In this document: positions 2,581 to 9,112 of the stretch, in pieces
Numbering within the stretch: the stretch's first letter is position 1
Layout: every line of letters starts with the position of its first letter
Assembly (NCBI GenBank): GCA_023249105.1
Contig: JAHFDG010000025.1
Coordinates: 1-51,902 of the forward strand
Length of the DNA stretch: 51,902 nucleotides
Origin: Candidatus Methanoperedens sp.
GTDB lineage: Archaea; Halobacteriota; Methanosarcinia; Methanosarcinales; Methanoperedenaceae
Reading direction: 5' to 3'
Notes under the pieces: model-generated
Told to the model about the DNA's origin: nothing
What the model saw: the letters and a program-made list of their open reading frames with translations, nothing else
Databases searched by the model: none
Translations under genes and position numbers: made by a program

Positions 2581-2654
2581 CGCGGAATTGAGCCTCGCAG
2601 TTAATAGGTCAATACCCGAACCAACATCATTCACCCTAAAGGATGCAAGATGCT

Positions 2655-4373
2655 ATGAAATGGAGTACGGCATGCCCGAATTGGCAAGAACGAATCTTTA
2701 CGGGCGAATCATTAATGCCATGCCCGCCATTGTTTCCAGATGAGGCCTCCGCTGCCCTTGCTGTTTTCAAAGAACTTCGCCTTGTCGATGTATTAGGCCG
2801 CCCGACGCTTGGAGAGGCCGGTCGTCAATGGCTATTCGACTTTGTCGCCTCTATCTTTGGTTCTTATGATGCTGATGCAGGAAGGAGACTGATATCAGAG
2901 TATTTTTTACTAATCAGCAAAAAAAATAGCAAATCAACCGGAGCAAGCGCCATCATGCTCACTGCGTTAGTCCTCAACTGGCGACAAAGTGCTGAATTTC
3001 TTATACTTTCTCCGACTGTAGAAATTGCCACAAATTCATTCAATCCCGCCCGCGACATGATTAAGGCAGACCAAGAATTATCTGACTTGATGCACGTACA
3101 GGATCATTTAAGAATGATCACTCATAGGGGGACAGGGGCAACGCTTAAGATTGTGGCAGCGGATTCTGAGACGGTCGGTGGGAAGAAGGCAACTGGCATC
3201 CTGATTGACGAGGCTTGGTTGCTTGGCAAGCGCAATAACGCCGAGAATATGCTCCGTGAAGCTTGCGGTGGTCTTGCCTCACGTCCTGAAGGATTTGTAA
3301 TCTGGCTTACCACTCAATCAGACGAGGCTCCGGCAGGAATATTCAAGCAGAAACTTGACTATGCAAGGGGTGTTAGAGATGGCATAATTAAAGATAATAG
3401 TTTCCTCCCAGTACTCTATGAATGGCCAAAAAAGATGTTGGATGAAAAAGCATATCTTGACCAGAAGTATTGGCATTTAACGAATCCGAATCTCGGGGCA
3501 TCTGTTGATGTGAAATTCTTAGAGAGGGAATTTTTTAAAGCGCAGGAAAGCGGTGAAGGTAGCATGCAGGGATTCCTCGCCAAACATCTTAACGTAGAGA
3601 TGGGTTTGTCTCTTAAATCACAGAGATGGGCAGGGGCTGACTTTTGGGAGGATGCAGGTGGGGATGTAACCTTAGACTCTATCCTTCAACGCTGCGAAGT
3701 AATTGAAATCGGGATCGATGGTGGCGGGCTGGACGATTTACTTGGGTTGGCTGTCTTAGGCAGGGAATCAGGTAATGGTAACTGGTTACTCTGGATACAT
3801 GCCTGGTGCCATAAGATAGCATTGGAACGACGGAAGTCCGAAGCACCCAAGTACCGCGACTTCGAGAAGGATGGCGACTTATCTATAATGGAGATGACCG
3901 AAGAGGGCATTAAGGAAGTTGGTGATATTGTTAGAAAGATTGATGCTTCAGGGTTGCTTGACCGGATTGGAGTTGATCCTTCCGGAATTGGGCTTATAGC
4001 TGATGAATTAGAGGCCGGTGACGAACAAGGTAACGGTAAAATAGAACATGATCGGATAGTCGGCATCCCGCAAGGATGGCGATTAAATGGGGCTATCAAG
4101 ACAATGGAAGTCAAGGTAGCTGGTAAAAGTATCATTCACGGCAATCAGCGGTTAATGGCGTGGTGTGTGGGCAATGCGAGGGTAGAGCCACGAGGAAATG
4201 CTATATCTATCACCAAGCAAGCGAGCGGTACAGGGAAGATTGACCCAGTGATGGCTTCACTGAACTGTTGTGCCTTGCTTGGAATGAATCCCGAAGCCAA
4301 GAATAATAGATCTAAGTTTACCGGTCAGTCTGAGGCGGAAATGTTAGAAGGAATGGTGATAGGAAGGATGTGA
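2655..4373 (+). CDS. terL: Terminase large subunit
   Basis: DNA-packaging motor with ATPase and nuclease domains. Numbered from the upstream ATG at 2643: an atypical Walker A, SKKNSKSTG (92-100); Walker B, GILIDEAW (185-192); a WLTTQS coupling motif near 221; and the RNase H-like nuclease with acidic IGIDGGGLDD (about 357-366) and IGVDPSG (about 442-448). Length (572-576 aa) is normal for the Terminase_1/YmfN-like family. AAAGG at 2638-2642 touches the ATG at 2643, so the in-frame ATG at 2655 has the more usual spacing and is used here; 2643 remains possible. It anchors the start of the head module. Confidence 0.95.
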   Translation: MKWSTACPNWQERIFTGESLMPCPPLFPDEASAALAVFKELRLVDVLGRPTLGEAGRQWLFDFVASIFGSYDADAGRRLISEYFLLISKKNSKSTGASAIMLTALVLNWRQSAEFLILSPTVEIATNSFNPARDMIKADQELSDLMHVQDHLRMITHRGTGATLKIVAADSETVGGKKATGILIDEAWLLGKRNNAENMLREACGGLASRPEGFVIWLTTQSDEAPAGIFKQKLDYARGVRDGIIKDNSFLPVLYEWPKKMLDEKAYLDQKYWHLTNPNLGASVDVKFLEREFFKAQESGEGSMQGFLAKHLNVEMGLSLKSQRWAGADFWEDAGGDVTLDSILQRCEVIEIGIDGGGLDDLLGLAVLGRESGNGNWLLWIHAWCHKIALERRKSEAPKYRDFEKDGDLSIMEMTEEGIKEVGDIVRKIDASGLLDRIGVDPSGIGLIADELEAGDEQGNGKIEHDRIVGIPQGWRLNGAIKTMEVKVAGKSIIHGNQRLMAWCVGNARVEPRGNAISITKQASGTGKIDPVMASLNCCALLGMNPEAKNNRSKFTGQSEAEMLEGMVIGRM

Positions 4374-5330: not shown

Positions 5331-5447
5331 ATGAGGAAATTGAAATGTATTAAATGTGGTTATGAATGGACACCAAGGGTGGATGAAGTTAAACGCTGCC
5401 CACGGTGCAAGACGCATTATTGGAGGATAGAGAAAGAAAAGAAGTAA
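5331..5447 (+). CDS. Small zinc-ribbon protein, first gene of the tas-like unit
   Basis: 38-aa ORF: ATG 5331, TAA 5445-5447. CIKCGYEW (6-13) and CPRCK (23-27) form a rubredoxin-like CxxC...CxxC zinc ribbon of the kind seen in tiny phage nucleic-acid-binding proteins. It lies between an apparently regulated promoter and the tas-like gene (33-base gap), so the two are probably co-transcribed. No clear Shine-Dalgarno is visible, and the start lies close to the predicted transcript start. It could regulate the unit or assist guide-RNA binding; neither is shown. Confidence 0.6.
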   Translation: MRKLKCIKCGYEWTPRVDEVKRCPRCKTHYWRIEKEKK

Positions 5448-5479: not shown

Positions 5480-6337
5480 ATGACAAACGAAGAGCAAGTA
5501 CAGTATTTGAATTTCTTAGTAAAAGAGTACATCGGTGTAACCAAACTAATCGCATCCACCAAGCAGAGATTGCAATCACTCCCCGGAGAAGACCGAGATG
5601 CAGAGTTTGATACTTTGCTTAAAGGTCAGAACCACGAAACTGGCCTCGAAACCATCAAAGGCCGTATCAACCGTGAGTTAGAGAAGGAGATCAAGTCATG
5701 GGATGTGTGGGAACTCTGGGCAAAGAACATCCCAGGAATCGGTGCCTACATCGCAGCCCAGTTGATTATTCTGTTCTACTATCGGTTTGTGCCGGTTTGC
5801 AAGGATTGTGGTGGTTCACTGGTCAAGGGTGATAAGGAAACCGAAACCGGTAAGGTAATCAAAACGCTTATCTGCTCCAAGTGCAACAAGGTCGCCAAGG
5901 AAGGGCTGCTCAATCACAAACTCGAATATAAGGATTTCCCTACAATCTCAAAATGGTGGGCATACATGGGGCGGCATACGGTTGATGGTGTCATGCCTAA
6001 GCGTAAGGCCGGGGTTGTGTCTAATTGGTCAACGGTAGGCCGGACATTAGGTTTCCATATTGGCGACCAGTTTAACCGGCAACAGGATGACCACCCCTAC
6101 AAAGCAATTCTTAACACCCGCAAACTCAAACGGCAGAAAGACCACCCCGAATGGTCGAAGGGGCATGTTCATAATGCCGCCAAGAACGAGACGGTGAAAA
6201 TATTCCTGACTCACTGGTGGACAGTGGCGAGGACGTTGGAAGGTAAACCGGTATCAGAACCTTACGTGGGTGCGTTGATGGGGCATACAAATATTATTAA
6301 GCCTTTTTATTGGAATGGTGTTGATGGGGACAAGTAG
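5480..6337 (+). CDS. tasA: TIGR-associated (Tas) protein, nuclease-less TasA type; IS110 Transposase_20-related
   Basis: 285 aa. Residues 1-80 are helical and charged. NIPGIGAYIAAQLI (83-96) is the helix-hairpin-helix that opens the IS110 C-terminal (Transposase_20) domain. FPTISKWWAYMGRH (153-166), KAGVVSNWSTVGRTLGFHIGDQF (interrupted reading, about 176-198) and HVHNAAKNETVKIFLTHWW (229-247) continue that domain. A four-Cys zinc ribbon (C107, C110, C132, C135) is inserted between helices. The IS110 N-terminal DEDD/RuvC-like domain is absent, and there is no HNH or RuvC, so this is not a complete transposase. Tas proteins are known to combine a Nop/IS110-like guide-RNA-binding domain with an optional nuclease; TasA lacks the nuclease. 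The 36-bp TIGR-like array begins 12 bases after the stop codon. Likely role: RNA-guided DNA binding without cleavage. The Tas assignment is inference from domain plus array; the IS110-like domain itself is clear. Confidence 0.8.
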   Translation: MTNEEQVQYLNFLVKEYIGVTKLIASTKQRLQSLPGEDRDAEFDTLLKGQNHETGLETIKGRINRELEKEIKSWDVWELWAKNIPGIGAYIAAQLIILFYYRFVPVCKDCGGSLVKGDKETETGKVIKTLICSKCNKVAKEGLLNHKLEYKDFPTISKWWAYMGRHTVDGVMPKRKAGVVSNWSTVGRTLGFHIGDQFNRQQDDHPYKAILNTRKLKRQKDHPEWSKGHVHNAAKNETVKIFLTHWWTVARTLEGKPVSEPYVGALMGHTNIIKPFYWNGVDGDK

Positions 6338-6349
6338 CGAGATTCCTTC

Positions 6350-6646
6350 TGAAACCCAATTGACGATTGCGAGCGAATGTGAACCTGAAACCCATTGAAC
6401 TGGTGTGAACGATAATCCGGCTGAAACCCAGAAGGTCAGTGTGAACGAACCTTAATCTGAAACCCATCGGGCGGGTGTGAACGAGAACCACGTTGGAACC
6501 CATATGTGTAATGTGAACGAAATGTTCGGTGAATCCCATGAATCCGCTGTGAACGAGGCAAGCGCTGAAACCCAAGATCCGGTTGTGAACGAAAGAAAGG
6601 ATGAAACCCAGTTTGCAGTTGTGAGTGAGAAAATTATTTAACCCCA
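6350..6646 (+). repeat. TIGR-like array: eight 36-bp units with paired 9-nt spacers
   Basis: Eight consecutive units begin at 6350, 6386, 6422, 6458, 6494, 6530, 6566 and 6602, all exactly 36 bp. Each unit is TGAAACCCA, 9 variable bases, TGTGAACGA, 9 variable bases. Five of seven internal first blocks and six of six internal second blocks are perfect. The end units are degenerate (TGCGAGCGA in unit 1, TGTGAGTGA in unit 8), and a half-repeat TTAACCCCA (6638-6646) closes the array. All sixteen spacers differ. Example pairs: ttgaactgg/taatccggc and tcgggcggg/gaaccacgt. Conservation includes wobble positions of every reading frame and the forward frame has stops, so this is not protein-coding. 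A 36-nt unit with two guides of about 9 nt is the signature of tigRNA arrays. TGTGAACGA and (C)TGA recall box C and box D. Confidence 0.88.
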
Positions 6647-6704
6647 ATGTTATGATGCGTAACTTATTAACCCTTTAACTATTACCCTAAAAGGAGAGAT
6701 TCCT

Positions 6705-7367
6705 ATGAAAGCACCAGCAAAGCCAGCAGTTAAAGTTCCAACTAAGTACGATGCCCTCACAATAGCTGAACTTGAAGGCAGCGTAGAAAAGATGTTCACC
6801 CTATCCCGTGAGTCGCAGAAGGAAATGTATTGCGTTCTTGAGTATCTCCGTACCTCCAACCGGTTCAAGGAGAATACTCGCTACAAGAAATCATCCTTCT
6901 GGGAATACCTCGAAGATCGGTTCACTATCCGGCAGGGAACCTACCGTGAAAACGTGCGAGCATTTGTAAAATTCCCTGATTTTGCGGTAGAGTACGGAAC
7001 CGGCCTTGTAACTGCTATCGAAGGCAAGTGCGGCAATCTAAAAACCGCCAAGGTAATTGCCGAGATAATCAAGGAAGAAGCAGCCCACAAGAAGCCCCTT
7101 AACCGGATGGCAATTCAATCCATCATCGACAAACACGCCAAGCCGCGTATCGAAAAAGTAATTACCGATTGGAAAGCGATGTTTGAATCTGAATCTGCTC
7201 GGCATGAGATAACCAAAAACAACCTCAAGATAGCATTGGCGGAAATCAAAGAGTTGCATGAACAGGTTGAAAAACTCAAGGCCACTGCGCAGAAGTTTGG
7301 TGAGATGCGTGATTTGTTTGCTAAACATGATTGGGCGATAGCGGGAGATCGTAGTTTGCAAGTATAG
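6705..7367 (+). CDS. Helical coiled-coil protein downstream of the TIGR-like array
   Basis: 220 aa, ATG after AAAAGGAG. Residues 1-15 are Ala/Lys/Pro-rich. Residues 20-110 are helical with a possible DNA-binding helix-turn-helix (SSFWEYLEDRF...GTYRENVRAFVKF). Residues 160-205 form a clear coiled coil (ALAEIKELHEQVEKLKATAQ). It shares the expression direction of the tas-like gene and lies 59 bases beyond the end of the array, with no visible terminator between them. Family not recognised; it vaguely resembles phage proteins of the DUF3102/ParB-helper kind. It may be a partner of the array or simply the next phage gene. Confidence 0.75.
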   Translation: MKAPAKPAVKVPTKYDALTIAELEGSVEKMFTLSRESQKEMYCVLEYLRTSNRFKENTRYKKSSFWEYLEDRFTIRQGTYRENVRAFVKFPDFAVEYGTGLVTAIEGKCGNLKTAKVIAEIIKEEAAHKKPLNRMAIQSIIDKHAKPRIEKVITDWKAMFESESARHEITKNNLKIALAEIKELHEQVEKLKATAQKFGEMRDLFAKHDWAIAGDRSLQV

Positions 7368-7577: not shown

Positions 7578-7835
7578 CAACTATTCCCTACATTTTCTAA
7601 GCTAAAATCACTTAAATCATTATTAATATCCCTATTGTCTTGGGATGTTTCCAATTCAAAAAACATTATCTCTATCCTATGGAATGTATTTGATCTCCGC
7701 GACTTACTTGTTTTTGGTGGATTGCTGTCCGTTAGTTATGGTTTTTATCTTATTGCTCCATGTTTTGGATGGATAGGGCTTGGTTTATTATCAATGCTTC
7801 TTGGCCTTGGGTGGATTATTAGGAGGCCTAAGTGA
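7575..7835 (+). CDS. Small membrane protein upstream of portal
   Basis: Up to 86 aa from a TTG at 7575. There is no ATG in frame and the TTG lies in a hairpin arm, so the true start is uncertain. The C-terminal half contains two hydrophobic helices (LLVFGGLLSVSYGFYLIAP and WIGLGLLSMLLGLGWII) ending in RRPK, as in small inner-membrane proteins often placed just before phage portals. Its stop overlaps the portal start by four bases, and the portal ribosome site (AGGAGG) lies inside its last codons, so the two are translationally coupled. Function unknown. Confidence 0.5.
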   Translation: MQLFPTFSKLKSLKSLLISLLSWDVSNSKNIISILWNVFDLRDLLVFGGLLSVSYGFYLIAPCFGWIGLGLLSMLLGLGWIIRRPK

Positions 7836-9112
7836 GTATTCTTAGTAAGGTTGAAAAACGAATATATAATGACTTGTCTTTATCAAATCCAAAAGCATGG
7901 AATCCCCAGCTTTGGCAGTTTGCCGGTTCGCAATCGGTATCCGGGGAGAATGTAACCGAATCATCTGCATTAACTTACAGTGCTGTGTGGGACGCCGTTG
8001 GCCAGATCTCCGCTACCATATCCACACTCCCCCTTCACCTGCTCCGTTCTGATGCCAATAAAACCATCCAAGCCACTGAAAAACGTCTATTTCGTGTCAT
8101 GCACAGTGAATTTAATAAGTACATGACCGCTCAGATAGGCAGGGAAGTATTAGCCGCTCATGTCTTAACTTGGGGCAATGCTTACGCTGAGAAAGTCTAT
8201 AATGGCTATGGCGACATTATCGAACTCTGGCCTATCGCTCCAAATCGGGTACGAATGGATATGGAAGATGGTGAATTAATTTACTATATCCGTGTTGGTA
8301 GCGAAGATATACCGTTGTCCCGTTCTCAAATTCTCCATATCCCCGGCTTAGGATTCGATGGATTCCAAGGTTATTCAGTAATTTCAATGGCTGCTAAGTC
8401 AATCGGTCTTGGCATGGCTTTAGAAACTTTCGGAGCTATGTACTTTGGCAATGGAACCCACCCAGGCACAATAGTTTCGCATCCCATGAAACTTGGTCCA
8501 GAAACTAGAGCTAACCTTCAGAATACGCTAACCACTGCTTATAGCGGCCTTGGCCAATCTCATCGCTTAATGTTGCTTGAAGAAGGGATGAAGATAGAAC
8601 AGATAGGAATTCCTCCTAATGATTCGCAATTCCTCGAATCCCGCACCTTCCAGATTTCCGATATTGCAAGGTGGTTCCACATCCCAGTCCATAAACTAAA
8701 AAACATGGAACGGGCGACTAACAACAATATAGAATCAGAGCAGGCATCTTATTATATCGACTGCATACTTCCTTGGCTAATCCGGATTGAGCAATGTTAT
8801 GGCCAGCAATTATTGTCTGAATCAGAAAAATGGAAGCAAAAGCTCTATTTTAGGCACAATGTAGATGGTCTGTTGCGTGGGAATTCCAAGGATCGTGCCG
8901 AATATTATAAAATCATGTCTGGAATTGGCGGGATGACGATCAATGATATTCGTCGCAAAGAGAATATGGATCCCTTCCCCGATCAATATGCCGACGAGCC
9001 GTTCATAGCTATCAACAACATGATTCCATTAAGCAAAGTAGATGAATGGTTGGCTAATCAAGCAAAATCAGTACAAGCATCAAACACAGCACCAAAGGAG
9101 GTTGTCTCATGA
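7832..9112 (+). CDS. Portal protein, HK97 family
   Basis: 426 aa, GTG start with AGGAGG 5 bases upstream. Portal proteins form the dodecameric ring at the capsid vertex through which DNA enters and to which the connector binds. Family hallmarks visible: AVWDAVGQISATISTLPLHL (about 50-70), the conserved LTWGNAYAE (about 111-119), PNRVRM, the clip region ILHIPGLGFDGFQG (about 165-180), YFGNGTHPG, and the terminal FRHNVDGLLRGNSKDRAEYY (about 345-365) followed by NDIRRKENM. Normal length. Its stop overlaps the protease start (ATGA). Confidence 0.95.
   Translation: MSILSKVEKRIYNDLSLSNPKAWNPQLWQFAGSQSVSGENVTESSALTYSAVWDAVGQISATISTLPLHLLRSDANKTIQATEKRLFRVMHSEFNKYMTAQIGREVLAAHVLTWGNAYAEKVYNGYGDIIELWPIAPNRVRMDMEDGELIYYIRVGSEDIPLSRSQILHIPGLGFDGFQGYSVISMAAKSIGLGMALETFGAMYFGNGTHPGTIVSHPMKLGPETRANLQNTLTTAYSGLGQSHRLMLLEEGMKIEQIGIPPNDSQFLESRTFQISDIARWFHIPVHKLKNMERATNNNIESEQASYYIDCILPWLIRIEQCYGQQLLSESEKWKQKLYFRHNVDGLLRGNSKDRAEYYKIMSGIGGMTINDIRRKENMDPFPDQYADEPFIAINNMIPLSKVDEWLANQAKSVQASNTAPKEVVS

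Follow-up and report, generated by a model that had tools for sequence, protein, structure and literature searches.

The window analyzed here, a 51,902-nucleotide stretch of DNA assigned to Candidatus Methanoperedens sp. (contig JAHFDG010000025.1), carries at positions 5480 to 6664 what we conclude, with a probability of roughly 0.85, to be a TIGR-TasA system that belongs to a tailed phage and represents a zinc-ribbon, partner-bearing subtype. The tas gene, the array and the partner gene all lie on one strand, on which no terminator was predicted between them, and are arranged as follows.

5480 to 6337, + strand: tasA, encoding a 285-aa Nop-domain Tas protein without a nuclease domain
5780 to 5929, + strand: zinc-ribbon insert in TasA, residues 101 to 150
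6338 to 6340, + strand: 5'-truncated edge repeat (CGA), read from the sequence, with which the array opens immediately 3' of the tas stop codon
6341 to 6664, + strand: TIGR array of nine dual-spacer units, the ninth degenerate, with the truncated edge TGCGTAACT at its end
6705 to 7367, + strand: partner gene, 220 aa, linked to tas in 20/23 loci

The array is built on a 27-nt core, composed of a loop repeat, nine variable nucleotides and an edge repeat, that occurs eight times between positions 6350 and 6628 at a spacing of exactly 36 bp; in 100 shuffles the same core was found 0.05 times on average and never more than once, which confirms the array reported in the first-pass annotation of this DNA. 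Each 36-nt unit consists of spacer A, the loop TGAAACCCA, spacer B and the edge TGTGAACGA, and the spacers are 9 nt long. We assigned TGTGAACGA as the edge and TGAAACCCA as the loop because the array opens with a truncated TGTGAACGA and the arrays of related loci end in TGCG. Both repeats contain a box D (UG) and a CCA-like box C, the latter diverging to CGA in the edge. The A/B spacer pairs of units 1 to 8 are GATTCCTTC/ATTGACGAT, ATGTGAACC/TTGAACTGG, TAATCCGGC/GAAGGTCAG, ACCTTAATC/TCGGGCGGG, GAACCACGT/TATGTGTAA, AATGTTCGG/TGAATCCGC, GGCAAGCGC/AGATCCGGT and AAGAAAGGA/GTTTGCAGT, and these 16 spacers all differ, as had been stated. The exact 36-bp period also stood; however, the count of eight units did not, since a degenerate ninth (pair GAAAATTAT/ATGTTATGA; spacer at 6629-6637, loop-like TTAACCCCA at 6638-6646, spacer at 6647-6655) precedes the 3'-truncated edge at 6656-6664, and several related arrays end in the same way. 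Likewise, the array had been placed 12 bases after tas, whereas the truncated edge at 6338 begins one base after the stop codon TAG (6335-6337), and 12 bases separate tas from the first loop, at 6350. No rho-independent terminator was predicted on the + strand after the array, where the partner gene comes next; such a terminator is typical of TIGR arrays, although not universal.

The protein encoded upstream of the array is of the TasA type in the scheme of Faure et al. 2025 (PMC12045711), having no nuclease domain. It matched the NCBIfam model NF052498 (TIGR_Tas_endo) at 1.6e-27, with 96.9 bits against a cutoff of 100, and the same model matched 20 of 20 aligned sequences (the window protein and 19 relatives). 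A profile of these 20 sequences matched TasR (PDB 9mty) at 8.1e-43 and TasH (PDB 21kl) at 2.4e-14. In a Foldseek search of the PDB with the AlphaFold2 model of TasA (predicted local distance difference test [pLDDT] score, 84), the 10 best matches were all TasR or TasH, with IS621 behind them, so that TasR and TasH were the best matches by both sequence and fold. The N-terminal 100 residues are helical and align with the region of TasR that precedes its C-terminal part. The protein had earlier been described as IS110 Transposase_20-like and lacking DEDD; the absence of DEDD stood, and the Transposase_20 assignment did not, since a Pfam search found nothing above threshold, no nuclease domain and no Transposase_20 match at an E value of ≤1. 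Membership in the TIGR-Tas family, as first proposed, is borne out by the array geometry, the repeat motifs, the curated hidden Markov model, the similarity to TasR and TasH in sequence and fold, and the covariation of the edge repeat described below. By homology to TIGR-Tas, RNA-guided DNA binding would follow for the window TasA.

Relatives were obtained from IMG/VR and one genome record as 22 further loci, 41 to 80% identical; near-identical contigs were counted once, except L029/L030, giving 23 loci with the window. An adjacent 36-nt array was present in all 22 related loci, with a loop TGAAACCCA or a variant of it and an edge TGCGAGC[GCT]A or variant; the repeats carry the UG...C.A motifs, and these arrays likewise open with a truncated edge. 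In the cryo-electron microscopy structure of TasR, the 5' and 3' edge halves within a tigRNA form base pairs at two positions. One of these pairs was kept in 234/237 units and the other in 230/237, against a shuffle mean of 222.6 and a maximum of 227 for each, and control position pairs were mostly unpaired. The edge reads TGCGAG in the relatives and TGTGAA in the window, where G6-C3 has become A6-U3 in six of seven units and G6-U3 in the other; in L009, C7-G2 has become U7-A2 or U7-G2. Because the units of a single locus do not count as independent, these edge changes represent a few evolutionary events, in each of which the pair was kept. Covariation, which in the window and in L009 involves both members of the pair, thus supports the predicted pairing of the edge repeat at the sequence level.

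The zinc ribbon within the Tas domain, remarked on in the first-pass annotation, proved to be real. Its CxxC..CxxC cysteines (C107, C110, C132 and C135) do not vary among the aligned sequences (20/20), and the insert, four-stranded in the AlphaFold2 model, follows the PGIGxxIAA motif and precedes the ISKWWAYMG segment, at a site where TasR and TasH have 6 to 8 residues in the profile alignment. Three more distant Tas proteins, from Microcystis phage Mvi-JY20, Arthrobacter phage Talia1610 and genome G076, lacked the insert, and the word "zinc" is not used in the main text of PMC12045711. In the G076 locus (L201), 36-nt periodicity follows directly after the ribbonless Tas gene, and a strong 30/45-bp tandem repeat lies about 0.4 kb upstream of that gene. 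Mvi-JY20, an isolated phage whose host is known, carries TasA (L215; PP438412.1, 18709-25065), annotated as hypothetical, and after it a 36-nt array whose repeats are close to ACGAAACCCA/ATGCGAGCCA and whose spacers are shorter.

Relatives of the partner gene were not present at L006, L012 and the fragment L033, within the DNA examined. An IMG/VR search with the partner alone returned 12 contigs, 11 of which hold this tas; in the twelfth, of 6.2 kb, an array adjoins the partner. Arrays often also lie 3' of the partner, and the order in L035 is array-partner-array-tas-array. Because the neighborhoods of the pair differ among loci (terminase or portal, primase or helicase, RecE, RNA polymerase), tas and partner seem to move together as a module. 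Among 393 genomes of the phylum, the partner was found only in the window's own genome. Its structural model (pLDDT, 90) shows an all-helical N-terminal domain followed by a C-terminal coiled coil of about 60 residues; searches against Pfam, PHROG and PDB gave nothing credible, the matches being coiled-coil noise, and a Foldseek search found no match in the PDB, weak matches to viral proteins and nothing ParB-like.

For the spacer pairs, we derived a target geometry from the 8-nt 3' overhangs reported in PMC12045711, namely, A and then B in reverse complement along a single strand, and searched this order first and the other order second, with gaps of 0 to 2. Across 1.82 Mb of the bin (approximately 55%), 0.30 Mb of phage loci and the loci of the relatives themselves, there was no clear excess over mispaired controls; the rest of the bin was covered by exact matching of four pairs. 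Neither four pairs in exact searches of 31 congeneric genomes nor three window pairs in IMG/VR gave any match. Relatives had no spacers in common, apart from one related pair in L028/L029 and a pair at L002 5894 and L005 5975 with A and B swapped (GGAGGCCCA/TTACCGCCT versus TTACCGTCT/GGAGGCCCC), which agrees at 16/18 letters, no such match being expected. This swap suggests a common target read in either orientation and is what symmetric use of both spacers, reported for TasR (PMC12045711), would allow. In the relatives' own records, the L002/L005 pair had no convincing site, and one match with three mismatches lay in the array itself. Three contigs from IMG/VR, of which two represent a single virus, matched the L002 pair exactly with a gap of 1 or 2, too few to tell from chance:

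L212, 1654-1672: match to the L002 pair
L213, 5780-5798: match to the L002 pair
L214, 1731-1750: match to the L002 pair

One of these matches lies within a 200-aa gene and one spans the start codon of a small HNH-like gene, and chance is a possible explanation.

Several points weigh against the conclusion that this is a partner-bearing TIGR-TasA subtype. The main doubt is that the partner may be the published TasParB, which would make the locus a typical case of the TasA-TasParB subtype already known. The parB-like gene of PMC12045711 is operonic with tasA, has arrays upstream, downstream and between, and encodes a protein that dimerizes through its C terminus, and the layout here is the same; however, none of 18 partner proteins had a ParB Pfam match, no ParB-like structure was found by Foldseek, an hhalign comparison with four ParB and three DUF1016-like proteins was negative (a shallow test), and the repeats are 10 nt in the published loci versus 9 nt here. 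On balance, we consider the TasParB identity unlikely, at perhaps one chance in a few. Of the remaining points, the functional role of the partner with TasA is one that we infer from linkage, and the NCBIfam score of the window protein lies just below the cutoff. Box C also differs between the window repeats (CGA in the edge versus CCA in the loop), whereas in published arrays the boxes C of the two repeats almost always covary. The Tas frame continues into the first array units in L002, L003, L005 and L012, a coding overlap. Finally, no convincing target for the spacer pairs was found in the bin, the genus genomes, IMG/VR, or the phage and related loci searched, a result that neither backs nor contradicts the silencing of host or rival phage genes suggested in the first-pass annotation.

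It could also be envisioned that the locus is a degenerate, inactive TIGR locus, since its last unit has decayed and its edge repeat departs from that of the relatives. However, the departure preserves pairing (six A-U and one G-U in seven window units), the middle units are nearly perfect and the tas and partner reading frames are intact, and we regard inactivity as improbable. Less probable still is a coding tandem repeat with a 12-residue unit in place of guides. Such a repeat would fit a unit length divisible by 3, a 116-aa open reading frame on the minus strand that stays open across the array, and the Tas C termini that take in the first units in some relatives. Against this, the spacer columns are near maximal entropy (1.8 to 2.0 bits each) with no third-base pattern, at least one of the eight window units contains a stop codon in five of six frames (all eight units in one frame), the changes in the edge repeat are compensatory, and the repeats beside Tas are alike in every relative; on entropy, stop codons and covariation, we rejected it. 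A remnant of an IS110-like RNA-guided transposase, to which the PHROG 4285 match (9e-21; labeled transposase) and the weak IS621 fold match might point, is the least probable explanation and was also rejected, since there is no DEDD domain in the 285 residues, TasR and TasH match far better, and a multiunit array with no Rfam match takes the place of a single bridge RNA. Separately, minus-strand stop codons in the array units of the 22 loci were somewhat rarer than in shuffled spacers (26 versus 43 in one frame), for which a positional base bias may account.

If the locus is a TIGR-TasA system, the literature on TIGR-Tas indicates how it would operate. The array RNA would be cut in the middle of the edge repeat to give 36-nt tigRNAs, and the edge and loop motifs, which resemble box C/D (UG...C.A), would be bound by a TasA dimer. 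Spacers A and B would then each pair with a different strand of an adjacent 18-bp site, and this site, by analogy with work on TasR and TasH, would be unwound and bent. Without a nuclease, the TasA complex might occupy the site and so block or mark the DNA. More speculatively, the partner could act with TasA, its coiled coil bridging or extending the bound complex, and the zinc ribbon could contact nucleic acid or the partner. That this is a new TIGR subtype, with the partner as a dedicated effector recruited by RNA-guided TasA to silence or mark phage-chosen DNA, is a tentative proposal to which we give somewhat less than even odds.

The phage context is provided by genes for terminase, portal, protease, major head protein, tail proteins, exonuclease and primase-polymerase on the contig. 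Features flanking the locus are as follows.

388 to 1629, + strand: ParB-like/DNA methyltransferase fusion (PHROG 498, 2.7e-76; PHROG 620, 8e-29)
2643 to 4373, + strand: phage terminase large subunit (PHROG 9, 6.7e-119)
7832 to 9112, + strand: phage portal protein (PF04860, 6.6e-97)

The four Phage_integrase matches in the bin all lie off the tas contig, which may come from a prophage or a free phage or may have entered the bin by accident. Methyltransferase genes related to the fusion were also seen near arrays in L003, L006 and L020. Just upstream of tas, at 5331-5447, a 38-codon open reading frame, MRKLKCIKCGYEWTPRVDEVKRCPRCKTHYWRIEKEKK, reads as a small zinc-ribbon protein.

We therefore judge this to be a genuine TIGR-TasA locus, of a known kind, in which the zinc ribbon and the linked partner, features that we did not see reported elsewhere, are new, subject to comparison with TasParB. 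What TasA does in the absence of a nuclease is left as a question in PMC12045711, where its functions are called "less apparent" and TasParB is the one clear protein association noted. The linkage of a partner to tasA in some 9 of 10 loci offers a testable second component for this question and a concrete lead to the role of nuclease-free TIGR-Tas systems. The zinc ribbon is a discrete domain open to mutation, and the altered edge in the window is a natural compensatory change that lends independent sequence support to the pairing in the TasR structure.

Among known systems, the IS110/IS621 bridge-RNA recombinases (PDB 8wt6 and 8wt9) have a related RNA-binding fold, but the window protein lacks DEDD and is accompanied by an array, not a single bridge RNA. 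TIGR-TasR (PDB 9mty) and TasH (PDB 21kl and others) share the C-terminal Nop region, the box C/D-like motifs and the edge pairing; unlike them, the window TasA has no RuvC or HNH domain, and a zinc ribbon replaces the loop of 6 to 8 residues. The TasA-TasParB loci (PMC12045711) are similar in having a second gene beside tasA and arrays before, between and after, but differ in their 10-nt repeats (9 nt here) and in that the window partner has no detectable ParB similarity in Pfam, Foldseek or the shallow hhalign test. Closest are the dual-repeat arrays of TIGR-TasA (Faure et al. 2025, PMC12045711), which are phage-borne and share the solo-Nop Tas protein, the alternating edge and loop repeats, the 9-nt spacers, the 36-nt unit and the truncated edges at both array ends; in contrast to these, the window has its array between tas and partner with no terminator found after it, a conserved zinc-ribbon insert and a conserved partner gene.
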